Shown here piece by piece: positions 8,606-51,939 of a stretch of DNA of 64,000 bases. This DNA is from Caballeronia sp. SBC1. GTDB lineage: Bacteria; Pseudomonadota; Gammaproteobacteria; Burkholderiales; Burkholderiaceae. The translations under genes and the position numbers were made by a program. The notes beneath the pieces were generated by a model, which made no database searches, was not told the origin of the DNA, and was given only the letters and a program-made list of their open reading frames with translations. The DNA lies in contig NZ_CP049157.1 of the NCBI RefSeq assembly GCF_011493005.1, positions 1,922,001-1,986,000 of the forward strand, read 5' to 3'. Position 1 is the first letter of the stretch; each line of letters begins with the position of its first letter.

Positions 8606-9282
8606 TGCATCATTTCAATTGGAGCAGTGTGCTGAGTTCGCTGCCCACGCTGTGGACCGGCGCCATTATCACCTTCAAGATCACGGTGCTTGCGCTTGTG
8701 TTCGGGATTCTCTGGGGCACCGTGCTCGCGTTGTTTCGCTTGTCGGGCATCAAGCCGCTTGAATGGTTCGCGAAGGGGTATGTGACGCTGTTCCGTTCCA
8801 TCCCGCTCGTGATGGTGTTGCTGTGGTTCTTTTTGATCGTGCCGCAATTCCTGCAAAATGTGCTGGGGTTATCGCCGGAAATCGATATCCGGCTTGCTTC
8901 CGCCATGGTCGCGTTCTCGCTGTTCGAGGCCGCGTATTATTCGGAAATCATCCGTGCCGGCATTCAGGCGGTGTCGCGCGGGCAGGTGAACGCGGCGTTC
9001 GCGCTCGGCATGACGTACACGCAGTCCATGAGGCTGATTGTGCTGCCGCAGGCGTTTCGCGCGATGGTGCCGCTGCTGCTCACGCAGGCTATCGTATTGT
9101 TCCAGGATACGTCGCTGGTGTATGTGATCAGCCTCGCGGACTTTTTCCGCACGGCAACGAATGTGGGTGATCGCGACGGTACGACCGTCGAAATGGTGTT
9201 GTTCGCCGGCGCCTGTTATTTCGTGGTGTGCCTGGCCGCATCCGGTCTCGTCAAAAGTCTTCAGAAAAAGGTCGCTCGATGA
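8605..9282 (+). CDS. Amino-acid ABC transporter permease (GltK-type)
   Basis: A 225-residue HisQ/GltK-type permease with about five membrane segments and the EAA loop [24 protein letters not shown] one codon earlier (8602) is possible, but ATG 8605 overlaps the gltJ-type stop by one base and has TTGGAGGCAAG just upstream, so it is preferred. The end overlaps the ATPase start (ATGA), consistent with a tightly coupled operon. Confidence 0.92.
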
Positions 9283-10004
9283 TCTCACTCAAGAATGTTT
9301 CGAAATGGTATGGCCCGTTTCAAGTGCTCACCGATTGCACGACGGAAGTCAAAAAAGGCGAAGTAGTGGTGGTGTGCGGTCCTTCGGGCTCGGGCAAGTC
9401 GACGCTGATTAAAACCGTGAACGGACTCGAGCCGTTCCAGAAGGGCGAGATCACGATCAACGGGCAGTCGATTGGCGACAAGAAAACCAACCTGTCGAAG
9501 CTGCGCTCGAAGGTCGGCATGGTGTTTCAGCACTTCGAACTGTTCCCGCATCTGACGATCGTGCAGAACCTGACGCTGGCTCAGATCAAGGTGCTGGGAC
9601 GCTCGAAGGACGAAGCAACGGTCAAGGGATTGAAGCTGCTGGAGCGCGTGGGCTTAAGCACGCACGCTGACAAGTTCCCCGGCCAGCTTTCCGGCGGGCA
9701 GCAGCAGCGGGTGGCGATTGCACGGGCGTTATCGATGGATCCGATCGCCATGCTCTTCGATGAACCCACGTCCGCGCTGGACCCGGAGATGATCAACGAA
9801 GTGCTCGACGTCATGGTCGAACTCGCGCAGGAAGGCATGACCATGATGTGCGTGACGCACGAAATGGGCTTTGCGAAGAAGGTCGCGCATCGCGTGATCT
9901 TCATGGACAAGGGCTTCATTGTGGAAGACGACAAGAAGGAAGCGTTCTTCGAGAATCCGAAGTCGGATCGGGCCAAGGACTTTTTGGCCAAGATTCTGCA
10001 TTGA
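9279..10004 (+). CDS. Amino-acid ABC transporter ATP-binding protein (GltL-type)
   Basis: A 241-residue ABC ATPase. Walker A GPSGSGKS is at residues 34-41, the Q-loop lies in [12 protein letters not shown], the signature is LSGGQQQR, and Walker B is [14 protein letters not shown], followed by the H-loop VTHEMGFA. The start at 9279 overlaps the permease stop. It energises the importer formed by the two permeases and the binding protein at 5822. It is the last gene of the unit before an IS element; no clear terminator was found after it. Confidence 0.94.
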
Positions 10005-40752: not shown

Positions 40753-40849
40753 GGTTGCCTGGGTCAAAGTCTTTCACCAGTGCGTAATTTTCGGCACCCG
40801 CTACCCATACGAGACAGAAGCCACGCGCAAGATGAAACGTGGCTCTCCT

Positions 40850-41743
40850 TCAGCCAGCGCGCTCCAGATAGCGCTTCACTTCGGCGTCGATCCATTCCAT
40901 GAAATGCGCCTGCTTCACACTCAATACTTCACGCTGCTGCCAGACGAGCCAATACTGATACGGGTATGGCACGTGTATATCGGTAATCTCAACGAGCTCG
41001 CCGCGCGCAATGGCATCGGCAACGAGCGTGCGCCGTTCAAGCGCGATGCCCTGCCCCAGAAGCACCGCACCCAGCACGATATTCGAATCGTTCGCGAACA
41101 GGCCACTCACATTCGCGGGTTCGCGCACGTTGGCGGCGCGGCACCAGTCGGTCCAGGGTGCATCGGTGCTTCTTATCAACGGACACGCCACGATCTCCTC
41201 AGCGGAGCAAGGAAGCTGACCGCCGTTGAAATGCGGCGCAGCCACGACCAGCAGTTCGTCGCTAAACAACTCTTTCTGTGCAAGGCCGGGCCAGTGCCCT
41301 TGCCCCATTCGAATACTGACATCGGCCAGACCGTGCCGCATATCCTGTATCTCAAGACTTGTTTGCAGACGCACACGGTAATACGGATGGCGCTCGCGAA
41401 AGCTCGACAACCGAGGCAACAGCCAATGCAAGGCAAACGACGGCAGCGTTGCGATGACCAGTTCGCTCTCTTGAGGACGGGCTTGAGCCAGAAGCGTCGC
41501 GTTTGCAATGTCGCGAAGCGCCGAGCGTATTTCGAGCGCATAGAGACGTCCCTCTTCCGTCAGCCGCAATCCTCTCGCTTCACGCACGAAGAGCGCAACG
41601 CCCATGGTGTCTTCGAGAATCCTGATCTGCTGACTGACTGCCGAGTGCGTCACGTGAAGTTCGCGCGCAGCGAGCGTGACGCCGCCGAGCCTGGCCGCCG
41701 CTTCGAAACATTTGAGCGCGGTTAGAGGCGGGATGTTTTTCAT
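40850..41743 (-). CDS. LysR-family regulator (GcvA-like)
   Basis: A 297-residue LysR protein. The N-terminus PPLTALKCFEAAARLGGVTLAARELHVTHSAVS is characteristic of the GcvA/AmpR-like subgroup. The effector domain follows (ESELVIATLPSFALHWLLPRL). It is divergent from the glutathione-S-transferase gene at 41899 with a 155-base gap, and is its likely regulator. Confidence 0.92.
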   Translation of the reverse strand: MKNIPPLTALKCFEAAARLGGVTLAARELHVTHSAVSQQIRILEDTMGVALFVREARGLRLTEEGRLYALEIRSALRDIANATLLAQARPQESELVIATLPSFALHWLLPRLSSFRERHPYYRVRLQTSLEIQDMRHGLADVSIRMGQGHWPGLAQKELFSDELLVVAAPHFNGGQLPCSAEEIVACPLIRSTDAPWTDWCRAANVREPANVSGLFANDSNIVLGAVLLGQGIALERRTLVADAIARGELVEITDIHVPYPYQYWLVWQQREVLSVKQAHFMEWIDAEVKRYLERAG

Positions 41744-42611: not shown

Positions 42612-43529
42612 CTAATCGGCATCGGAGTCAGACTCGGCATCCAGCGCCAGCACGGTCACCCCCACATCGACCCGATGTGACCCGCCGCCAAGAATCATCC
42701 CGCGTAGCAGCGACACGTCGCTATAGTCCCGCCCCGTGGCAAGCGTCACATGTTCGAGATCGGCCAGCACATCGTTCGTGGGATCAAGATCGATCCACCC
42801 GCTGCCGGGGCAAAACACCGACACCCACGCATGCGACGCATCCGCGCCGATCAGCTTCTCCTGCCCCGGCGCGGGATCATTGCGCAAATATCCGCTCACG
42901 TACCGGGCCGGCAACCCAAGCGAACGCATGCAGCCGATCATCACTTGCGCAAAATCCTGACAGACGCCCCGACGCATTTCAAACGCGCGATGAGCAGGCG
43001 TGTCATACGACGTGGCCAACGGCTTGTACTTGAAGTCACCATAAATCCGGTGCATCAGGTCGATTGCCCCTTCCGCCAGCGGCGTGCCCGCAGGAAAACT
43101 CTCCAGTGCATAATCCCGCAAGTCCTGCCCGAGACTGATATTCGGCGACGCAAAGCAAAACTCCGTCTCAGGGCGAAACGGCGCACGGGCGCTAAAACGC
43201 ATGTCCTTCGCGACCTCATCCCATGCCGGCGTGGTTGCCGGATCGAGAGATGCCCATCGCGGCGTCAGTTCAACGGTCGTTTCGCTGACCATCTGCAATG
43301 ACCGGTGCGGTGACTCGAGCGAAAAATACAGCACGTCGTTACCGAAGGTATCGACGCGACTATTGATGTACGGCGGCTTCGGCTCAATGCTTTCGGTATG
43401 TGAGATCACGCGTTGCCACGCGCAATTCTGCGGCCGGATAGTCGCGAGATGCTGAGCCGTCTCCACGTACGTTGAATAGCGGTAGGTCGTCCGGTGTGAC
43501 ACCCACAATACCGTTTTCGGAATCTTCAC
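42612..43529 (-). CDS. Transglutaminase-like protein A
   Basis: A 305-residue protein with an N-terminal beta domain (SHRTTYRYSTYVETAQHLATI) and a transglutaminase/papain-fold core. The triad is intact: C190 (RRGVCQDFAQ), H233 (ADASHAWVSVF) and D249 (WIDLDPTND). No signal peptide, so cytoplasmic. The start overlaps the stop of the ATP-grasp/alpha-E gene by four bases. In related bacterial clusters such proteins are thought to hydrolyse or transfer peptide or isopeptide bonds made by the ATP-grasp partner (published prediction; not proven). Confidence 0.9.
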   Translation of the reverse strand: MKIPKTVLWVSHRTTYRYSTYVETAQHLATIRPQNCAWQRVISHTESIEPKPPYINSRVDTFGNDVLYFSLESPHRSLQMVSETTVELTPRWASLDPATTPAWDEVAKDMRFSARAPFRPETEFCFASPNISLGQDLRDYALESFPAGTPLAEGAIDLMHRIYGDFKYKPLATSYDTPAHRAFEMRRGVCQDFAQVMIGCMRSLGLPARYVSGYLRNDPAPGQEKLIGADASHAWVSVFCPGSGWIDLDPTNDVLADLEHVTLATGRDYSDVSLLRGMILGGGSHRVDVGVTVLALDAESDSDAD

Positions 43530-46099
43530 GACGCCACCTGCAATGCCTGGGTATTCGCGTGACTGAAATAGCGTGCGCTGATTTCATGCGCGGCGGCGCT
43601 CACGTGGTCCCCCAGTTCCTCGCAGGCCCGGACGAGTTCGCCATAGTTGCCCTCCTCGTCGGTCGTGCACAGTTGCTCGAGTTCTCGCAACGACTTCAGC
43701 AGCAGCGTTGCGTCGCTGAACGCGCCGTAGTTCGTGTTGCCAGCCGCAATCGAAATCTCGTTGAGCTTCGTGCACAAGCGCGAGTACACGCCGTAGAGGC
43801 CGCGCGGGTTCGTCGGCTCGACCACCAGCAGGTCGATCAGCGCGGGAACTTCGAAACGCCCCGGGTAAAGCGATCGATACGTGAGCGTACTGTCGAACAA
43901 TTGCAGCAACAGATCGAACCCGGCTGGCGTCGTCATCTGGCCATGCTCGGCGGCCACGCGCAGGAAGGTGGTCATCGTCCATACCCGTTCGATGTGCCGT
44001 CCCGCGAACACCAGCTTCCACGCTTCGTCGCGCGTCATGCGGTCGCCCTGCGCGCCACTGATCGCGAGCAGTCGCGTCGACAGTGTTTCAAGCGTCCGCG
44101 TGAGCTTCACACGGTCATAACGCTCTACGCCCGGTCCCGGCTTGAACTGCTGGATGGCGTCGCGGAAGTCGTTGCGCGCGGCCAGGATCGTACGCCAGTG
44201 ATCGGTCGAAAGACGTCCGCGAATCTCGCTGCTCGCGCGCACCTGGCTCGCCAGGTTCTGGCCGATGCTGGCCGCTGCGCCGCTCTCGCCTATGTTGGCG
44301 ACTAGCAAACGTTCCAGCCCGCGCGCCGTGTGCCCTTGGAGCGGCGTGCCGGGTGGCAGCAAGCCACATTGCCACGCGAGGTCCACCATGGTCTCCAGCA
44401 TGCCCTCGGAGTCGTTGCTGTCGATCGACGAGAGGATCACGCGCAGCAGTCGCACATTGTTCTCGGCGCGCTCTCCATATCGTCCGGACCAGAAGAGGTT
44501 TTCTGCGGCGCGGCTGGATACAGTCCGATGCTTGCGCGCAAGGTCAGCCGGTTTGATCGGCGTGGGAAGCAGCGAGAGGCTTGAAGCCGGTTTGCTCGAC
44601 AGCACCCAGGTGTCGACGCTGCTGCTGCCGTATTGCATCGACACCGACGGTTGGCGTTCAGCCCCAAGCCGCGTGAATCCCCCCGGCATCACGGACCAGC
44701 CGCCATCAATATTCGCGATTGCATAAACACGCAGAACCGACGGCCGGCCCGTCAATGTGTTGTCTTCATAACGCGGCGCGTGCGAACTCGGGAACAGGTT
44801 CTGGATGGTGAAGGCGTCCGGCATGACCTCGATCCGCGCGCGCCAACCGGCGAGCGGTTGCAGGCCGTCGCCGAAACCGCGCGGGCTGCCGCCGTTGAGC
44901 GGCAAGCCCGGCCAGGTGGGAATCACGAATGCCTTGTCCAGGCGTTCCAGCACCGCTTCGCGCGCGGCTTTTTCACCGCACCACCAGGTGGGCACACTCG
45001 CCAGGTCCAGCGGCTCGTTCAGAAGCGCGCGCGAGATGGCCGGCAGGAAACCATGCAGCGCCGGCGATTCGACAAACCCCGAGCCCGGCACGTTCGACAC
45101 CATCACGTTGCCGGCCCGCATCACCTGCAACAGGCCGGGCACGCCGATGGTGGAATCGGCGCGCAATTCGACAGGATCGCAGAATGCATCGTCCAGGCGG
45201 CGCATCAGTACGTGAACCCGTTCCAGTCCGGCGAATGTCTTCAGGAACAGCATGTCGTCGCGCACGGTCAGGTCCTTGCCTTCGACCAGCGTGACGCCGA
45301 GGTAGCGAGCAAGGAACGCATGCTCGAAGAAGGTTTCGCTGAACGGCCCGGGCGTCAGCAGCGCGATGTGCGGCGAGCCTTCACCCGACATCATCGCCCG
45401 GCCGCCCTGCACCAGCGCGGCGATCAGTTGCGAGTAGAACGGGGCGAGTCTCTGGACCTTCATCGAACGGAACGGCTCGGTGAATACGTCGGAGACGATC
45501 AGGCGGTTTTCGAGCGCATAACCGAGTCCGGACGGCGCTTCCGTCCGGTGAGCCATCACGGTCCATGCGCCGTTGGGCGCACGCGTCAGGTCCACGGCAA
45601 CCAGCTGCAAATATTGCGCGCCGGGCGGGACGAAACCCTTCACCGAACGCAGATACCCGGGATGCCCGTACACCAGCGCGGGCGGCAGGAGGCCGTCGTG
45701 CAACAGCGTTTGCGGCCCGTAGATATCGGCGACTATGGCGTTGAGCAACTTTGCGCGCTGTGTCACCGCGCGCTCGATCACCGACCACTCGCCTTCTTCT
45801 ATGAGAAATGGCAGCAGGTCCAGCGCCCACGGACGAGGCTCGCCCTTGTCCGCATAGACGTTGTAGCTGATGTCGTTGTCGCGGACTTGTTGCACGATGG
45901 AAGCGGTCGCCCGGTCGAGGCCGGCTATGCCTTCGTCGCCGAGAGCGTCGAAGAATTGCTGCCAGGGCGCACGCAACTGGCCCGACGCGTCGCGCAGTTC
46001 GTCCCAATGGCCCTCCCGGACCGGGACCGCGCGAAGGTGTGACGACACACTCGCGCGGTTCGTGATTGCTTCAAACGGAAGCGTGGATTGGAAGGCCAA
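43526..46099 (-). CDS. Circularly permuted ATP-grasp fused to alpha-E domain
   Basis: An 857-residue two-domain protein. Residues about 75-480 form a circularly permuted type 2 ATP-grasp ligase (DUF404/DUF407 type: DNDISYNVYADKGEPRPWAL, HPGYLRSVKGFVPPGAQYL, HIALLTPGPFSETFFEHAFL). Residues about 528-850 form an all-helical alpha-E domain (DUF403 type: SRAAENLFWSGRYGERAENN). In many genomes these are two adjacent genes; here they are one frame. ATP-grasp enzymes join a carboxylate to an amine via acyl-phosphate, so this is the probable peptide-bond-forming member of the locus. Overlapped by transglutaminase A; 24 bases after the DUF2126 gene. Confidence 0.92.
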   Translation of the reverse strand: MAFQSTLPFEAITNRASVSSHLRAVPVREGHWDELRDASGQLRAPWQQFFDALGDEGIAGLDRATASIVQQVRDNDISYNVYADKGEPRPWALDLLPFLIEEGEWSVIERAVTQRAKLLNAIVADIYGPQTLLHDGLLPPALVYGHPGYLRSVKGFVPPGAQYLQLVAVDLTRAPNGAWTVMAHRTEAPSGLGYALENRLIVSDVFTEPFRSMKVQRLAPFYSQLIAALVQGGRAMMSGEGSPHIALLTPGPFSETFFEHAFLARYLGVTLVEGKDLTVRDDMLFLKTFAGLERVHVLMRRLDDAFCDPVELRADSTIGVPGLLQVMRAGNVMVSNVPGSGFVESPALHGFLPAISRALLNEPLDLASVPTWWCGEKAAREAVLERLDKAFVIPTWPGLPLNGGSPRGFGDGLQPLAGWRARIEVMPDAFTIQNLFPSSHAPRYEDNTLTGRPSVLRVYAIANIDGGWSVMPGGFTRLGAERQPSVSMQYGSSSVDTWVLSSKPASSLSLLPTPIKPADLARKHRTVSSRAAENLFWSGRYGERAENNVRLLRVILSSIDSNDSEGMLETMVDLAWQCGLLPPGTPLQGHTARGLERLLVANIGESGAAASIGQNLASQVRASSEIRGRLSTDHWRTILAARNDFRDAIQQFKPGPGVERYDRVKLTRTLETLSTRLLAISGAQGDRMTRDEAWKLVFAGRHIERVWTMTTFLRVAAEHGQMTTPAGFDLLLQLFDSTLTYRSLYPGRFEVPALIDLLVVEPTNPRGLYGVYSRLCTKLNEISIAAGNTNYGAFSDATLLLKSLRELEQLCTTDEEGNYGELVRACEELGDHVSAAAHEISARYFSHANTQALQVAS

Positions 46100-46123
46100 A
46101 TTGAGCAGTTTTCGTTAATGAAG

Positions 46124-49100
46124 CTAGCGTCGGCGCAAATCGAGCGTGAAAGGAAACTCCAGGCTGCGCTTTGGTTCCTCCACGACCATCCGTCCAGGCG
46201 TATGGCCGATTCTGAAAAAGCGCGCGCGCCGCCGGCTTTCCGCCTCGTATGCGTTGACCGGATAAGTCACGTAATTGCGGCCACCCGGATGGGCTACATG
46301 ATACCGGCATCCGCCTATGGACCGGTTGCTCCAGGTGTCGACAATATCAAAGGTAAGCGGTGCATCTACCCCAATTGACGGATGCAGCGCAGTCGGTTGT
46401 GACCATGCCCTGAAGCGCACGCCGGCCACATGTTCGCTCACCCGCCCGGTGGGTTGCAACGGCAGAGGCACGCCGTTGACTGTCACCACATGGCGGTTGT
46501 CGTTGAGCCCGAGCACCCGTACCTCGAGCCGCTCCACCGACGAATCCACGTAGCGCACCGTACCGCCCGGCGACCCCTGCTCGCCCATGACGTGCCACGG
46601 CTCCAACGCGCTGCGCACCGTCAGTTCGATGCCGTTCGTCTGGACGGCTCCCACCAGCGGGAAACGGAACTCGAAATGCGGCGCGAACCACGCGGCATCG
46701 AACGCATAGCCGGCTTCATTGAGGTCCGCGATGACGTCATGGAAATCCATTTCGATAAACGTGCCGAGCATGAAACGGTCATGCAGTTCCGTGTCCCAGC
46801 GCGTGAGGCGCGTGGTGTACGGCTTGTCCCAGAACCGCGCGACGAGCGCACGCAGCAGCAACTGCTGGACGAGGCTCATGCGAGCGTGCGGCGGCATTTC
46901 GAAGCCCCGCAGTTCGAGCAGTCCGAGGCGGCCGGTCGGACCATCGGGGGAATACAACTTGTCGATACAGAATTCCGCGCGATGCGTGTTGCCGGTCACG
47001 TCGATCAGCAGGTTGCGCAGCGTCCGGTCGATCAGCCACGGCGGCAGCAATGCACTGTCGCGTCCGCCCAGGCGTTCGAGCTGATGTTCGATCTCCTTGA
47101 ACGCGATCTCCAGCTCATAAAGCTGGTCGTTGCGGGCTTCGTCAACACGAGGCGCCTGGCTCGTCGGTCCGAGAAACAATCCCGAGAAAAGGTACGACAT
47201 CGACGGATGATTGATGAAATACGCGATCAGGCTTGCAAGCAGGTCGGGACGCCGCAGGAACGGGCTGTCAGCAGGCGTTGCACCGCCAAGCACGAAGTGA
47301 TTGCCGCCGCCCGTGCCGGTGTGTCGCCCATCGGTCATGAACTTTTCGGTGCTGAGATAACTTTCGTGCGCCGATTGATACAGGAACTCGGTGTGATCAA
47401 CGAGTTGATCCCAGCTCGACGCCGGGTGAATGTTCACCTCGATCACGCCTGGGTCCGGCGTGACCTGCAGCATCTTGAGACGGGCATCGCGTGGCGGCGG
47501 ATAACCCTCTATCACCACTTTCATGCGCAGATCGGCGGCTGTTGCTTCAATGGCCGCGAGCAGGTCGAGGTAGTCATCGAGTTCGGTCAGCGGCGGCATG
47601 AACACATGCAGCAGGCTCTTGCCACTTCCGAACGATTTCGCTTCCACGTCCGGTCCTGCCGCACGCGCCGGATCGCGCGCTTCAACGCACAGCGCCGTGC
47701 GCCGGATCCACGAAGCCGACTCGCCACGCGACGGCTCGCGGGTTGAGGTTGCCGGCCGTTGCCCTATGCTCGCCGTTGCGTCCGTACCCGCTCTTTCTTC
47801 CGTGGTCTGTGCAACCACCGGTTCCCCGCGATATTGCATACGCAATTCCATCGCCTGGCGCAACGGCGCGGGCGGCCCGAACGGATCGTGCGGATGTTGA
47901 TAGGGATAGTCCCCCGCGCTCACCCACGGCAGCGATTCGAGCGGCAGCCGATACCCCATCGGCGAGTCGCCGGGAATCAGGTACATGCGGCCATCGCGGA
48001 AGAACCAGGGGCCGCTGACCCACGCCGGCGCTTGCATCGGGACATCACGTTCGCGGGCGATAGGCAGCACATAACCCGTCACCTGCGACAGGCCTGCGTC
48101 GAACACACGCCGCAAGCGCATGCGTTCCATTTCGTCGTCAAGTTCGGATTCGAACGGGTCCACGTTCACCGGCAGGCGACGTTCACGCCAGAGGTAGTAG
48201 AACGTGTCTTCGTAACCGGGCTGGATATACGACGGATCCAGCGAGACCTTGTCCGCCAGATGTTCGATAAATCGCCGAGCATCTTCAGCGGTGTAATGGC
48301 CGGGATCACGTTCGTCGGCGAATAGCGTCGGGTCTTCCCAGATCGGCTCGCCATCTGCACGCCAGAACAGCGACATGGCCCAGCGCGGCAACTGCTCGCC
48401 CGGATACCACTTGCCTTGACCGAGATGCAGAAAGCCGCCTACGCCATATCGTGCACGCAACTTGTCCATCAGCGAAACGGCATAACCGCGCTTCGTCGGA
48501 CCGAGTGCGTCGGTGTTCCACTCCGCCGCATCGCGGTCGCTCACGGCGACGAACGTAGGTTCGCCGCCCATCGTCAGGCGCACGTCCATGTCGGTCAGTT
48601 GCTGGTCGACTTGCGCGCCCATCTCCTGGACCGCGGTCCACACTTCTTCCGTGTACGGCTTTGTCACGCGCGGGGTTTCGAGCACGCGCTGCACCTGCAT
48701 GATGTGCTCGAACTCGACCTCGCTTTCATCGACAGCGCCAAAGATAGGCGCAGCACTCCCCGGTTCAGGTGTGCAGGCGACAGGGATATGTCCCTCGCCG
48801 GCCAGCAGCCCGGAGGTCGGGTCGAGTCCGATCCAGCCCGCGCCGGGCAGGAAGACCTCGCACCACGCGTGCAGGTCGGTGAAGTCGACTTCAGTACCGC
48901 TCGGGCCATCGAGGGACTTCTGGTCCGGGGCGAGCTGGATCAGGTAACCCGACACGAAACGCGCCGCCAGTCCGAGCTGCCGCAAGGTTTCGACGAGCAG
49001 CCAACCCGTGTCGCGGCAGGACCCCAATGCTTTGTCGAGCGTCTCTTCTGGCGTCTGAACGCCGGGCTCCATCCGAATCACGTAGCCAATGTTCTGCTGC

Positions 49101-49555
49101 AGCCGCTGGTTCAGCGCGACCAGGAAATCGGCCGTCCCTGTAGGCGTCTTGTCGATGCTCTCGACAAACTTCGCCAGCAAAGGCGTTGGCTCGCGCTTGA
49201 TCAGATACGGCGCGAGTTCAGCCGCGAGTTCCGGTTCGTAGGTGAACGGGAATTTCTCGGCGTAGGGCTCGAGGAAGAAGTCGAAGGGGTTGTACACCGC
49301 CATCTCGGCGACCAGATCGACCGTGATCTTGAATTCCCGCGTTTTTTCGGGGAAGACGAGCCGCGCCTGATAGTTGGCGAACGCGTCCTGCTGCCAGTTG
49401 ATGAAGTGTTCGGCTGGCTCGACCCGCATCGAATAGGAGACGATCGGCGTACGGCAATGCGGCGCGGGCCGCAGGCGCACGACCTGCGGAGAAAGGCCGA
49501 CGAGGCGGTCATAACGGTAGTGCGTGACATGGTTCAACGCGACACGGATTGACAC
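46124..49555 (-). CDS. Transglutaminase-DUF2126 fusion protein
   Basis: A 1143-residue protein. Residues 1-290 are a transglutaminase-like module: N-terminal VALNHVTHYRYDRLVGLSPQ, triad C180 (LGSCRD), H229 (DLHAWCEVF) and D245 (GLDPTSG). The remaining ~850 residues are the DUF2126 region (LTMGGEPTFVAVSDRDAAEW, NHFVLGGATPADSPFLRRPD). The start is taken as GTG at 49553-49555, because AGGAGT precedes it and homologues begin SIRVALNHVTHYRY; an ATG nine codons upstream is possible. First gene of the minus-strand unit; divergent from the zinc peptidase gene. Confidence 0.92.
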   Translation of the reverse strand: MSIRVALNHVTHYRYDRLVGLSPQVVRLRPAPHCRTPIVSYSMRVEPAEHFINWQQDAFANYQARLVFPEKTREFKITVDLVAEMAVYNPFDFFLEPYAEKFPFTYEPELAAELAPYLIKREPTPLLAKFVESIDKTPTGTADFLVALNQRLQQNIGYVIRMEPGVQTPEETLDKALGSCRDTGWLLVETLRQLGLAARFVSGYLIQLAPDQKSLDGPSGTEVDFTDLHAWCEVFLPGAGWIGLDPTSGLLAGEGHIPVACTPEPGSAAPIFGAVDESEVEFEHIMQVQRVLETPRVTKPYTEEVWTAVQEMGAQVDQQLTDMDVRLTMGGEPTFVAVSDRDAAEWNTDALGPTKRGYAVSLMDKLRARYGVGGFLHLGQGKWYPGEQLPRWAMSLFWRADGEPIWEDPTLFADERDPGHYTAEDARRFIEHLADKVSLDPSYIQPGYEDTFYYLWRERRLPVNVDPFESELDDEMERMRLRRVFDAGLSQVTGYVLPIARERDVPMQAPAWVSGPWFFRDGRMYLIPGDSPMGYRLPLESLPWVSAGDYPYQHPHDPFGPPAPLRQAMELRMQYRGEPVVAQTTEERAGTDATASIGQRPATSTREPSRGESASWIRRTALCVEARDPARAAGPDVEAKSFGSGKSLLHVFMPPLTELDDYLDLLAAIEATAADLRMKVVIEGYPPPRDARLKMLQVTPDPGVIEVNIHPASSWDQLVDHTEFLYQSAHESYLSTEKFMTDGRHTGTGGGNHFVLGGATPADSPFLRRPDLLASLIAYFINHPSMSYLFSGLFLGPTSQAPRVDEARNDQLYELEIAFKEIEHQLERLGGRDSALLPPWLIDRTLRNLLIDVTGNTHRAEFCIDKLYSPDGPTGRLGLLELRGFEMPPHARMSLVQQLLLRALVARFWDKPYTTRLTRWDTELHDRFMLGTFIEMDFHDVIADLNEAGYAFDAAWFAPHFEFRFPLVGAVQTNGIELTVRSALEPWHVMGEQGSPGGTVRYVDSSVERLEVRVLGLNDNRHVVTVNGVPLPLQPTGRVSEHVAGVRFRAWSQPTALHPSIGVDAPLTFDIVDTWSNRSIGGCRYHVAHPGGRNYVTYPVNAYEAESRRRARFFRIGHTPGRMVVEEPKRSLEFPFTLDLRRR

Positions 49556-49831
49556 ACCTGACTCCTGGACGAATTTTGGCACTCTTCAAAAGCAAACTCC
49601 ATGCCGTTTGGCTAAACACGCCATCGGGCAAGGCTCCCGGAAACTTCCATGCACTCAATACTGCGTTTTAAGCCTTCCCCAGCATCCGTTGATGCACCAA
49701 CCTGGCGCGTAAAACGCCCTTTGCGTCTGGACCGGACCGTTCCTGCAGCGGCACGTGGCTTGCTTGGCAGGAAGCCACCATCGAGCCACCGTCACAGTTT
49801 TCACACCCGCATTCCAGCCTATCTCTTCAAT

Positions 49832-50998
49832 ATGAAAACATTTCATTGCGGCCGTTGCCAGCATCACGTTTTTTTTGAGAACGTGAAATGCGAATCCTGT
49901 GCGGCGTTGCTGGGCTTCGTGCCTGAATTGTCCGAAGTTTGCGCGTTCGAACCGGCCGGCGACTCGGCTGGCGATTCGTCCGGCATTGCGCTGTGGCGCG
50001 CGCTGAATCCATCGGCGAACGGTGCGCTGTTCCGGCAGTGCAACAACTACGCGCTCGAGAATGTCTGCAACTGGATGATCCCCGCCGACTCGCCGGACGT
50101 GTTGTGCCCGGCGTGCAGCCTGACGCAGACCATCCCCAATCTCACCCAGCCGAACAATCGCGTCTACTGGTACAAGCTCGAGACGGCCAAGCGGCGCTTG
50201 CTGTTTGCGCTCTCGGCGCTCGGCCTGAACACGGATTCGCGACGGTCCAATCCGGAAACCGGTTTGCAGTTCGAGTTTCTTGAAGACGGCAACATGGGGG
50301 CGAAGGTCCTGACCGGTCACGACAACGGCCTCATTACGATGAACATAGCCGAAGCCGACGACGCCCTGCGCGAAGGCATGCGCGCGGAAATGCACGAGCC
50401 GTACCGGACCCTGCTCGGGCATTTCCGGCATGAGATAGGCCATTACTATTTCGACCGGCTCGTAGCGAATACAAGCTGGGAAGAACCGTTTCGCGAGATG
50501 TTCGGCGACGAGCGCGTCGACTACGCTCAAGCACTTCAGGCCCATTACGACAATGGACCGCCAGCCGACTGGGACCAGTCTTATGTGAGCGCCTACGCCA
50601 CCACGCATCCGTGGGAAGACTGGGCCGAGACATGGGCACATTACCTGCATATCGTCGATACGGTGGACACCGCCGCGGCCTGCGGATTCAAGCTTGATCC
50701 AAAGTCGGAAAACGAGCCTTCGCTTACCGAGATCGAGCCGGTCGAGAACACCAGTTTCGATAACCTCATGAAGCAATGGTTTCCGTTGATGTATGCATTG
50801 AACAGCTTGAATCGAAGTCTGGGACTGGCTGATGCGTACCCGTTCACGCTCTCGCCGAAGGTCGTCGCCAAGCTGCGTTTCGTGCATAAGGTGATTGCGA
50901 GCGCGGGTGCTCAGAATCAAGCGAACCAAGCGAAAGAAGCGAACGCTGATGTTCAGCAAGACATCAAGCAAGACCAACCAGCAGCGGCAGCGGGTTGA
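49832..50998 (+). CDS. Zinc-ribbon putative metallopeptidase
   Basis: A 388-residue soluble protein. The N-terminus has a zinc ribbon (C6, C9, C20, C23) and a second Cys set (C70, C79, C92, C95). The central HExxH zinc-peptidase site is H200-E201-I-G-H204 within GHFRHEIGHYYFDRL, followed by FGDERVDYAQALQAHY, which may supply the third ligand. The C-terminal 40 residues are Gln/Lys/Ala-rich. The longer frame from 49649 adds sequence without conserved motifs. It is between, and on the opposite strand from, the DUF2126 gene, and precedes transglutaminase C, so it is probably part of this system. Confidence 0.85.
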   Translation: MKTFHCGRCQHHVFFENVKCESCAALLGFVPELSEVCAFEPAGDSAGDSSGIALWRALNPSANGALFRQCNNYALENVCNWMIPADSPDVLCPACSLTQTIPNLTQPNNRVYWYKLETAKRRLLFALSALGLNTDSRRSNPETGLQFEFLEDGNMGAKVLTGHDNGLITMNIAEADDALREGMRAEMHEPYRTLLGHFRHEIGHYYFDRLVANTSWEEPFREMFGDERVDYAQALQAHYDNGPPADWDQSYVSAYATTHPWEDWAETWAHYLHIVDTVDTAAACGFKLDPKSENEPSLTEIEPVENTSFDNLMKQWFPLMYALNSLNRSLGLADAYPFTLSPKVVAKLRFVHKVIASAGAQNQANQAKEANADVQQDIKQDQPAAAAG

Positions 50999-51135
50999 TC
51001 AGTAATTAATCAGTAGTTCGATGTATTTAACGCCGTCTTGACCACCTTTCATGGTGAAATAAGCGACGTCAATGCCAGCAGCTCCGCGGCCGAGACTCGG
51101 CCATTTGAGCGCCCCAACCAAAAAAGGTCAGTCCG

Positions 51136-51939
51136 ATGAAGCTCCGCGTTGGTTACGAACTGGTCTACGAATGCGTGCAGCCGACACCGATGCTGCTGAT
51201 GCTGAATATGCACGCGTCGCGGGCGCAGAACATCCTTGTTCCGGACATCCTGAGGGTCAACCCGCAGGTGCCCTACTCGCAGTATCACGACTCATTCGGC
51301 AACTTATGCAGCCGGCTGGTTGCGCCCCAAGGCTGGCTCACGCTGTCCACTCAGGGGCTGATCGACGTGCCGCCTTATCCGGAAGTGCAGGAGCCCAACG
51401 AGTATCAGCATGCGGTTGAAGAACTGCCCGACGAGTGCATGCAGTTCCTGATTGGCAGCCGCTACTGCGAGACCGACCTGCTGTCCGATGCCGCCTGGCA
51501 GATGTTCGGCCATACGCCGCTCGGACGCGCCCGGGTGCAGGCTATTTGCGACTTTGTTCATCGGCACATCCGCTTCGACTACAACTGCGCGCGCCCGACC
51601 AGGACGGCTTTCGAAGCGTATCGGGAAGGCGTGGGCGTGTGCCGGGACTTTGCTCACCTAGCCGTCGCGTTATGCCGCGCGATGAACATTCCGGCGCGTT
51701 ACTGCACGGGGTATATCAGCGACGTCGGTTTGCCGCCGCCCTATGCACCCATGGACTTCTGCGCCTGGATCGAGGTGTATCTTGGCAACACGTGGCAGAC
51801 ATTCGATCCGCGCAACAATGCGCCGCGCACCGGCCGCGTATTGATGGCAAGAGGCCGCGACGCCGCCGATGTCGCGTTGAGCAACACCTTCGGTGCCACC
51901 ACGCTGGTCAGGTTTAGCGTGGTCTGCGAGCCTCAGTAG
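51136..51939 (+). CDS. Transglutaminase-like protein C
   Basis: A 267-residue transglutaminase-fold protein. N-terminal beta domain about 1-85; core from about 130. The nucleophile C169 is in GVGVCRDFAH and the Asp D224 in TFDPRNN. The position of the usual catalytic His (HAW in the other two paralogues) is C209 in MDFCAWIEVY. This suggests altered chemistry or a non-catalytic role, although this subgroup may naturally vary there. C-terminal GRDAADVALSNTFG is typical of the subgroup. Start ATG 51136. Same strand as the zinc peptidase, 137 bases after it. Confidence 0.88.
   Translation: MKLRVGYELVYECVQPTPMLLMLNMHASRAQNILVPDILRVNPQVPYSQYHDSFGNLCSRLVAPQGWLTLSTQGLIDVPPYPEVQEPNEYQHAVEELPDECMQFLIGSRYCETDLLSDAAWQMFGHTPLGRARVQAICDFVHRHIRFDYNCARPTRTAFEAYREGVGVCRDFAHLAVALCRAMNIPARYCTGYISDVGLPPPYAPMDFCAWIEVYLGNTWQTFDPRNNAPRTGRVLMARGRDAADVALSNTFGATTLVRFSVVCEPQ

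Follow-up and report, generated by a model that had tools for sequence, protein, structure and literature searches.

A conserved ATP-grasp/Alpha-E/transglutaminase/DUF2126 cluster with an associated zinc metallopeptidase and sigma-54-type sites in Caballeronia sp. SBC1

Described relatives of the locus

Gene clusters that combine a circularly permuted ATP-grasp protein (CP-ATP-grasp), an Alpha-E protein, a transglutaminase and a GS-like amidoligase were the subject of work by Iyer et al. (2009), who reportedly predicted a role for them in making peptide tags or peptides. The locus analysed here lies in a window of 64,000 nucleotides from Caballeronia sp. SBC1 (the window denotes that whole stretch of DNA). 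It is a CP-ATP-grasp/Alpha-E/transglutaminase/DUF2126 cluster, a kind already known, and shares the domain set and the predicted role in peptide-tag or peptide synthesis with those systems. It differs from them in that its ATP-grasp is part of a fusion and has lost site residues, and it adds an associated zinc-ribbon Peptidase_Mx protein and sigma-54-type sites. A product of CP-ATP-grasp/amidoligase clusters was not found in the literature searched.

The Anbu operon encodes an ATP-grasp, an Alpha-E protein, a transglutaminase and Anbu (PMC6376114, PMC5666114). Three domain types are common to it and to the window locus, which contains DUF2126 and a zincin instead of Anbu. None of the five window proteins matched a proteasome family, and a PF00227 gene of this genome is in another operon, on contig C3. 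As reported in PMC6376114, the ATP-grasp of an Anbu operon released phosphate from ATP, and peptidase tests with Anbu were negative. In Burkholderia cenocepacia, the cluster I35_5080-83 (BCAM1233-1236), described as DUF404/407, DUF403, transglutaminase and large transglutaminase, places the two transglutaminases next to the ATP-grasp and Alpha-E and, when nitrogen is limiting, depends strongly on NtrC and sigma-54 (PMC5491218); its separate ATP-grasp and Alpha-E gene is absent from the window locus. The gene order agrees with that of a Burkholderia puraquae locus (L241), from which we infer that the large B. cenocepacia protein is a DUF2126 protein. The Pseudomonas rlo operon (PMC12239564) also unites an ATP-grasp, a transglutaminase fold and a protease. 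However, its ATP-grasp is described as RimK-like, its protease as aspartic and its transglutaminase as an inactive membrane protein, whereas no membrane segment was seen in the window proteins; a RloABC/RimK-like identity was excluded by domain type and by the absent membrane segments.

Gene models and conserved neighbourhood

The original prediction of named domains between 42612 and 51939 held. The five genes there all have strong Pfam matches, and profile searches matched all the families that it had named (PF14403, PF04168, DUF2126 and PF01841). Three genes are on the minus strand and encode a transglutaminase-fold protein of 305 aa with Cys, His and Asp present (42612..43529; PF08379 and PF01841), a fused CP-ATP-grasp and Alpha-E protein of 857 aa (43526..46099; PF14403 with 433 bits, PF04174, PF04168 with 182 bits), and a transglutaminase joined to DUF2126, a putative amidoligase (46124..49555; PF08379, PF01841, PF09899 with 1320 bits). 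On the plus strand follow a zinc-ribbon Peptidase_Mx zincin-type metallopeptidase of 388 aa (49832..50998; PF10005, PF15887 with 365 bits) and a transglutaminase-fold protein with Cys in place of the catalytic His (51136..51939; PF01841). The minus-strand genes had been called overlapping, which is true of the first pair (four bases, 43526-43529), while the other junction is a gap of 24 bases.

The reading frames first given for the DUF2126 protein (46124-49582, minus strand) and the peptidase (49649-50998, plus strand) were longer. The most likely start of the DUF2126 protein is the GTG at 49555, which is preceded by AGGAG and can be read likewise in the ten loci inspected, and that of the peptidase is most likely the ATG at 49832, since aligned relatives open with MKTFHC or similar. 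With these starts, 49649-49831 would be promoter DNA and the divergent intergenic region would measure 276 bp. Comparison with reference locus L182 gave dN/dS values of 0.036-0.102, which means purifying selection on every part compared; therefore, the window genes are real. No strongly hydrophobic segment was found in the scanned stretches, which in the ATP-grasp protein lay beyond residue 60 (highest 19-residue Kyte-Doolittle mean 1.26), so that a cytoplasmic location of the products is a reasonable assumption. The five proteins had no match in NCBIfam. A defence system was rejected as a candidate, as none of them matched in PADLOC at E<=0.01.

Of at least 591 candidate loci, the best 80 were named. 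DUF2126 is followed at most 3 kb downstream by a fused-type ATP-grasp gene in 72 of these, with Alpha-E seen in 70 of the 72 and the remaining two ending at a contig edge; the 80 loci, so selected and mostly from Burkholderiales, are therefore not independent. In the class, DUF2126 is at most 5 kb from a CP-ATP-grasp in 18 of the 20 genomes that bear it, and two of nine genomes with the fused form have no DUF2126 (G013, G106). Among 80 genomes of the family, the 32 with DUF2126 are the same 32 that have the fused ATP-grasp. The original prediction had named scattered genes as the observation that would speak against one system; what was found is a conserved neighbourhood, and a single system of the amidoligase kind is supported.

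The zinc peptidase is truly associated with it. In 114 genomes sampled across the class, CP-ATP-grasp is present in 13/13 genomes with a strong peptidase match (at least 250 bits) versus 16/101 others (Fisher p=1.6e-9), the 101 including six genomes with weak partial matches of 21-38 bits, one of which (G036) has a CP-ATP-grasp. The peptidase is at most 5 kb from CP-ATP-grasp or DUF2126 in ten of the 13, and within the family it is at most 5 kb from DUF2126 in 18 of 23 peptidase-bearing genomes and apart from it in five. A run of ATP-grasp, Alpha-E and Peptidase_Mx was present in half of the peptidase loci fetched from other families (6/12). A secreted peptide product was also considered and rejected, as no recurrent transporter was seen when the neighbouring reading frames of the 80 loci were clustered (594 frames, each 120 aa or longer, a length that puts a small precursor peptide beyond this comparison). 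Among the 25 largest clusters of such neighbours, the commonest family has members in 19 loci and the second commonest in eight; by eye we take them to be the competence protein ComEC and a LysR-type regulator.

Active sites of the ligase-fold and hydrolase-fold proteins

The CP-ATP-grasp and Alpha-E of the window are joined in one protein (PF14403, PF04174, PF04168), and its ATP-grasp part lacks the E-x-N and DDK motifs, both of which are retained in all 71 canonical stand-alone sequences. The N, R117 and DDK are present in 71/72 stand-alone versus 0/106 fused sequences, and the E of E-x-N in 71/72 versus 1/106 (L127). The stand-alone exception, L246, ends at a contig edge, carries the fused residues and sits with the fused clade; the tree of fused ATP-grasps was scored as not monophyletic, with this sequence, filed as stand-alone, falling inside it. 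The ATP-grasp part is homologous (E=1e-60) to a putative glutathionylspermidine synthase of solved structure, 3n6x, in which L-E-D-N stands at the place of M-A-H-R in the window protein. Of the 106 fused sequences, 60 retain Lys at K320, the window protein not among them. By these residues the window ATP-grasp is a diverged paralogue devoid of the conserved metal/ATP-site residues; its active site is seemingly lost, and it is probably not the ligase. The claim that this enzyme forms amide bonds is not supported for the local copy, and the sole canonical CP-ATP-grasp match of this genome is in the separate Anbu operon on contig C3. Loss of motif residues is no proof of a loss of activity, and the ATP-grasp part is strongly conserved, with a dN/dS of 0.057 against L182. 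The replacement Arg is conserved in 96/106 sequences, and of the 155 columns that the stand-alone sequences conserve, the fused form retains 58 at >=90%, including Q58, R59, R143, E203, D220, R245, D247, R401 and D440 (numbering of the aligned window segment).

The DUF2126 protein is a better ligase candidate than the local fused ATP-grasp. Its dN/dS of 0.036 against L182 indicates very strong conservation, and DUF2126 is a candidate for a circularly permuted GS-like fold. A comparison of its profile with GCS2 and Amidoligase_2 gave no match but was uninformative, as the two controls likewise failed to match one another; with no usable frame in four of 14 loci, each profile contained only three to four sequences. 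A profile search of the PDB with DUF2126 gave nothing credible (best E 0.27).

Three transglutaminase-fold genes had been predicted, and all three products match PF01841, but the triad is retained in at most two of them. In the 42612..43529 protein, Cys, His and Asp are invariant in all 103 aligned relatives. In the DUF2126 fusion the triad is conserved across 119 aligned sequences, as judged by alignment, since a regular-expression look at the catalytic His is misleading there. The 51136..51939 protein has a MDFCAW motif with Cys replacing the catalytic His, a Cys found in five of eight sequences, the window counted. Its gene comes after the peptidase in no loci other than the window, L123, L125 and L182, and in L160 it adjoins a second peptidase copy. 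It is possibly cotranscribed with the peptidase; a strong sigma-54 site of its own was not found (best score 2.5).

In an alignment of 33 sequences of the zinc peptidase, HExxH is invariant and the zinc-ribbon Cys residues are invariant or nearly so. H200, E201 and H204 and the distal E262, D263 and E266 (numbered from ATG 49832) do not vary, so that the protein has the HExxH and conserved distal acidic motif of a Peptidase_Mx zincin. Of the 33 members, 30 match Peptidase_Mx1 (PF15890) weakly, with E values of 0.00021 at best and 0.015 for the window protein, and 9urd, a zinc metallohydrolase lipoprotein, gave a weak profile match around the distal ED..E..A motif (E 0.023). The N-terminal zinc ribbon distinguishes the window peptidase from both.

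Nitrogen control and proposed role

Sigma-54-type sites face both ways out of the divergent promoter region. A -24/-12-type site, CGGCATGGAGTTTGCT (49591..49606, minus strand, score 6.0 of 7), points toward the DUF2126 operon, and another, CGGCACGTGGCTTGCT (49749..49764, plus strand, score 6.0), lies 83 bases before the peptidase ATG at 49832. Sites toward DUF2126 with a score >=6 occur in 7/17 divergent loci, against a mean of 0.06 and a maximum of 2 in shuffles, and sites toward the peptidase with a score >=5.5 in 12/17 (shuffles: mean 0.41, max 3). Such sites precede 51 of 79 operons of this kind versus 2/523 neighbouring control reading frames; 28 of the 79 have no site >=6. The second peptidase copy and the Anbu operon of this genome are preceded by sites with scores of 6.0 and 7.0, respectively. 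The signal is apparent only across loci, not from scanning the window alone, where 29 sites with at most two mismatches were found versus 37.9 expected. An NtrC-like box, TGCACCAACCTGGCGCG (49693..49709, 10 of 12 consensus bases), is weak evidence: boxes of this quality or better occur in 4/17 loci (shuffles: mean 0.47, max 2), and at 9 of 12 or better there is no enrichment in the 17 loci (6/17 versus 3.7 expected).

The motif GGcacg-N4-ttGC is given by PMC5491218, which lists I35_5080-83 among the common sigma-54/NtrC targets. After a shift to nitrogen limitation, its table gives log2 values of -8.2, -9.4, -9.4 and -6.0 for these genes in an ntrC mutant, and -4.8 for glnA. The Anbu operon of P. 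putida is reported to be upregulated under nitrogen limitation (PMC7801951, PMC3325844) and with nitrate versus ammonium (PMC8050072); in one data set from one strain, the Anbu gene was unchanged (1.12) and its three neighbours were up 11-15 fold. The main text on nitrogen starvation of P. phymatum (PMC5748707) does not mention a locus of the window type under the terms searched, and passages of PMC12096838, PMC10274813 and PMC8407117 contain nothing bearing on it. Judged by its promoters and its relatives, it looks as if the cluster is turned on by nitrogen starvation, and nitrogen control is likely. This aspect was absent from the original prediction.

By sequence, the conserved trio of transglutaminase, ATP-grasp/Alpha-E and transglutaminase/DUF2126 genes is divergent from the zinc-ribbon metallopeptidase. 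We propose, with a probability of about one half for the proposal as a whole, that the locus is an amide-bond system induced by nitrogen starvation and acting in the cytoplasm. Phosphorylated NtrC would activate both divergent units upon nitrogen shortage. DUF2126 and a canonical ATP-grasp, acting in trans and here from the Anbu operon on contig C3, would ligate amino acids or amines to a short amide-linked product or tag. A non-catalytic role, as a binding or scaffold partner, may fall to the fused ATP-grasp/Alpha-E protein, and the zinc peptidase and both transglutaminase domains with a complete triad would transfer or remove the product. In this way the cell would likely modify proteins or amines, or recycle them, during nitrogen shortage. 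A wider version, which we offer as speculation and consider rather improbable, is a widespread tagging of proteins or peptides under nitrogen starvation. Its tag would be made by GS-like DUF2126 and canonical ATP-grasp, received or scaffolded by the non-catalytic pseudo-ATP-grasp/Alpha-E, and removed or transferred by hydrolases that can replace one another although their folds are unrelated: a transglutaminase, a zinc-ribbon zincin or the NTN-hydrolase Anbu.

The original prediction implied that the fused ATP-grasp is an active ligase, which would have a rearranged site and yield a small peptide or tag for the transglutaminases and the zinc peptidase to process. The PF14403 match of still 433 bits, the low dN/dS, the retained columns and the conserved replacement Arg are in agreement with this, but the site residues are missing throughout the fused form, and a canonical copy is also present in 32/32 family genomes with that form (versus 24/48 others), which makes an active local ligase unlikely. 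Alternatively, the set would be mainly hydrolytic, with transglutaminase-fold deamidases or peptidases and the zincin recycling nitrogen and the ligase-fold proteins serving for binding. The nitrogen control of relatives, the sigma-54-type sites and the company that Alpha-E/ATP-grasp genes keep with hydrolases of three unrelated kinds (transglutaminase fold, zincin and Anbu) are consistent with scavenging. However, the conservation of DUF2126 and the intact sites of canonical ATP-grasps suggest that ligation is under selection, and the phosphate release by the Anbu-operon ATP-grasp (PMC6376114) points the same way; we regard a mainly hydrolytic, scavenging role as doubtful. Chance proximity of unrelated genes is largely refuted and very improbable: the peptidase is apart from DUF2126 in five of 23 genomes and the His-less transglutaminase adjoins a peptidase gene only in the loci named above, but the order of the cluster is conserved in 72/80 loci, co-occurrence tests gave p=1.6e-9 and 1e-15, and the sites face both ways in a common divergent region.

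The conserved cluster probably forms unusual amide bonds and also cleaves them. The common regulatory signal, in 51/79 operons and in published transcriptomes, indicates nitrogen starvation as the time to look, and the active-site comparison indicates DUF2126 or a stand-alone ATP-grasp, not the fused form, as the ligase to examine. The zinc peptidase, as an added component, represents a third unrelated type of hydrolase in these clusters. Together, the results on regulation, active sites and the peptidase make the question testable by proteomics and metabolomics.

Gene content and conserved neighbourhood

The five genes at 42612-51939 are real, and the domains originally assigned to them were all recovered: a transglutaminase (42612-43529, minus strand), a circularly permuted (CP) ATP-grasp fused to Alpha-E (43526-46099, minus), a transglutaminase joined to DUF2126 (46124-49555, minus), a zinc-ribbon Peptidase_Mx zincin (49832-50998, plus) and a His-less transglutaminase (51136-51939, plus). 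The starts of the DUF2126 protein and the peptidase were corrected to GTG 49555 and ATG 49832, respectively, which leaves a divergent intergenic region of 276 bp. A 5' extension of the peptidase frame (49649-49831) covers the peptidase promoter, and a long open frame at 40832-41725, overlapping an equal-length frame on the opposite strand, looks antisense by eye. The dN/dS values of the locus parts compared with locus L182 (0.036-0.102) represent purifying selection. Among the matches listed, from which very near records are possibly omitted, the nearest named relative at the locus is Caballeronia sp. SEWSISQ10-4 2 (95% identity over DUF2126).

The genome (G000; 8.85 Mb, five contigs) also contains, on contig C3, a complete Anbu operon of canonical ATP-grasp, Alpha-E, transglutaminase and Anbu (L157 6645-11116; PF14403, PF04168, PF08379+PF01841, PF00227) and a second zinc-ribbon Peptidase_Mx gene (C3:1050757; L141 8949-10013), itself preceded by a sigma-54-type site. 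Contig C1 carries a transglutaminase gene pair (L158 8378-10142; also L005), which adjoins an ORF resembling, by appearance, an ECF sigma factor; one member is a His-to-Ala paralogue of the 51136-51939 protein.

The genes, which the original prediction took for one system, are not scattered, but show a conserved neighbourhood and co-occurrence in the class, the family and the named loci. The class sample comprised 114 evenly drawn genomes, every listed one with a different family label. DUF2126 was found in 20, CP-ATP-grasp in 29 and a strong Peptidase_Mx match (at least 250 bits) in 13, and all DUF2126 genomes (Fisher 1e-15) and all strong-peptidase genomes (Fisher 1.6e-9) are among the 29; weak partial peptidase matches (21-38 bits) in six more genomes, one of them with CP-ATP-grasp, were scored as absent. 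By the listed coordinates, no more than 5 kb separates DUF2126 from CP-ATP-grasp in 18 of 20 genomes (exceptions G049 and G101), and the peptidase lies within 5 kb of either in 10 of 13 (exceptions G013, G019 and G025). The order ATP-grasp, Alpha-E, Peptidase_Mx occurs in six of the 12 other-family peptidase loci fetched. At L167 an Anbu-like gene (8925-9671), called from the likeness of its start to the L157 Anbu gene, is convergent with Peptidase_Mx and adjoins ATP-grasp and Alpha-E genes.

Full or near-full-length peptidase matches were present in 23 of the 80 family genomes, with a fragment in a 24th; in 18 of the 23 the gene lies within 5 kb of DUF2126, divergently in 17, and in five it lies elsewhere (G115, G122, G137, G171, G182). 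The named loci are the best 80 of at least 591 matching stretches. In 72 of them a fused-type ATP-grasp gene follows on the same strand within 3 kb downstream, with the Alpha-E part visible in 70 (the other two end at a contig edge), and 67 have a transglutaminase gene in addition. Of the eight exceptions, three have less than 5 kb and five about 10 kb of downstream DNA; in L223 the fused gene lies upstream and in L252 7 kb away. In the locus DNA examined, a canonical ATP-grasp was also found in 40 and the peptidase in 11 of the 80. A comEC-like competence gene, recognized by eye, lies near the cluster in 19 (e.g., L189, L192-L196, L203). The peptidase association was not found in the literature searched; the 2009 amidoligase paper, outside that search, may contain it.

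Candidate ligase and hydrolases

Fused (106) and stand-alone (72) ATP-grasp sequences, aligned together, differ at the predicted active site. E113 is retained in 71 stand-alone sequences versus one fused sequence (L127), and N115, R117, D271, D272 and K273 in 71 versus none. The glycine-loop residues G326, G327 and G329 are each present in 71 stand-alone versus 6, 19 and 8 fused sequences. The sole stand-alone exception at every such position, L246, ends at a contig edge and groups in the fused clade. At the position of M-A-H-R in the window protein, the solved relative 3n6x reads L-E-D-N. We take the E and N, by analogy with glutathionylspermidine synthase, to be an E-x-N metal-ligand motif. 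A wholesale loss is countered by D114 and K320, which 29 and 60 of the 106 fused sequences retain (the window's does not), and by the 58 of 155 conserved columns that both forms share. Because the domain is conserved, a non-catalytic role of the fused ATP-grasp is, judged from sequence, more likely than decay, and DUF2126 is therefore the best candidate for the ligase of the locus; its putative GS-like nature is taken from the Pfam name.

Among the 80 family genomes, DUF2126 and the fused form have the same distribution: both are present in the same 32 genomes. Each of these also contains a canonical copy, which is found in 24 of the 48 others (p=2e-7). In the class sample, in which the two forms were separated by score and frame length, the fused form occurs in nine genomes, each of which has a canonical copy too; two of the nine (G013, G106) lack DUF2126. 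DUF2126 occurs without the fused form in 13 of 20 class genomes, which fits the fused form as an added partner. The window locus is inferred to work in trans with the canonical ATP-grasp encoded on C3 of its own genome. Broken ATP-grasp copies, split across several frames, were seen at G136:C1:574330-575366 and G081:C39:7858-8841.

Across 119 sequences of the DUF2126 protein, the transglutaminase part retains Cys in 118 (one gap) and His and Asp in all, and the family of the 42612-43529 protein has Cys-His-Asp in 103 of 103. In the 51136-51939 protein Cys replaces His; the eight sequences of its group, window included, have five Cys, one Ala, one His and one unreadable residue. The peptidase retains HExxH, the distal acidic motif and the zinc-ribbon cysteines, and shows weak kinship to Peptidase_Mx1 and 9urd.

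Probable nitrogen control

The link of the cluster to nitrogen comes from published data on relatives and related operons. In an ntrC mutant of B. cenocepacia shifted to nitrogen limitation, I35_5080-83 changed by log2 -8.2, -9.4, -9.4 and -6.0, a stronger drop than that of glnA (log2 -4.8), and these genes are listed as common sigma-54/NtrC targets (PMC5491218). That the values are log2 and not plain fold strengthens the regulation step. The Anbu operon of P. putida is upregulated under nitrogen limitation (PMC7801951; PMC3325844); in one strain the three neighbours rose 11-15 fold and Anbu itself 1.12, versus 4.81 in another strain (PMC7801951). The operon is also higher with nitrate than with ammonium (PMC8050072), and a marine metagenome study associates the domains of the cluster with urea metabolism domains (PMC3597751).

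The -24/-12 motif GGcacg-N4-ttGC, as given in PMC5491218, was scored with a scheme devised here (maximum 7); same-genus loci are not independent in the resulting counts. Toward the peptidase, 12 of the 17 divergent loci reach 5.5 (shuffles: mean 0.41, maximum 3) and four reach 6.0 (mean 0.07, maximum 2); toward DUF2126, seven reach 5.5 (mean 0.38, maximum 3) and the same number 6.0 (mean 0.06, maximum 2). Without the window the counts are 11 and 3 of 16, and 6 and 6 of 16, respectively. Sites of at least 6.0 precede the first operon gene in 51 of 79 named loci (shuffles: mean 0.52, maximum 2; one locus had too little DNA) and are absent there in 28, versus 2 of 523 other ORFs of at least 200 aa, not verified as genes, in the same loci. 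Of ten more family peptidase genes that are not part of the divergent set, four reach 5.5 (L139, L141, L156, L161) and six do not, nor do any of six other-family peptidase genes inspected. The site upstream of the own-genome Anbu operon is perfect (7.0), and none was found before the His-less transglutaminase or the C1 pair. NtrC-like boxes matching at least 10 of 12 positions occur in 4 of 17 divergent loci (0.47 expected), but at the looser threshold of 9 of 12 the count is six, against 3.7 expected. Neither the breadth of the sigma-54-type sites nor the ATP-grasp degeneracy was found in the literature searched.

The genes of the window locus form a real and conserved system, one whose kind is known yet unsolved. 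This variant includes a zinc peptidase, its local ATP-grasp has lost the site residues, and it is probably under NtrC/sigma-54 control.
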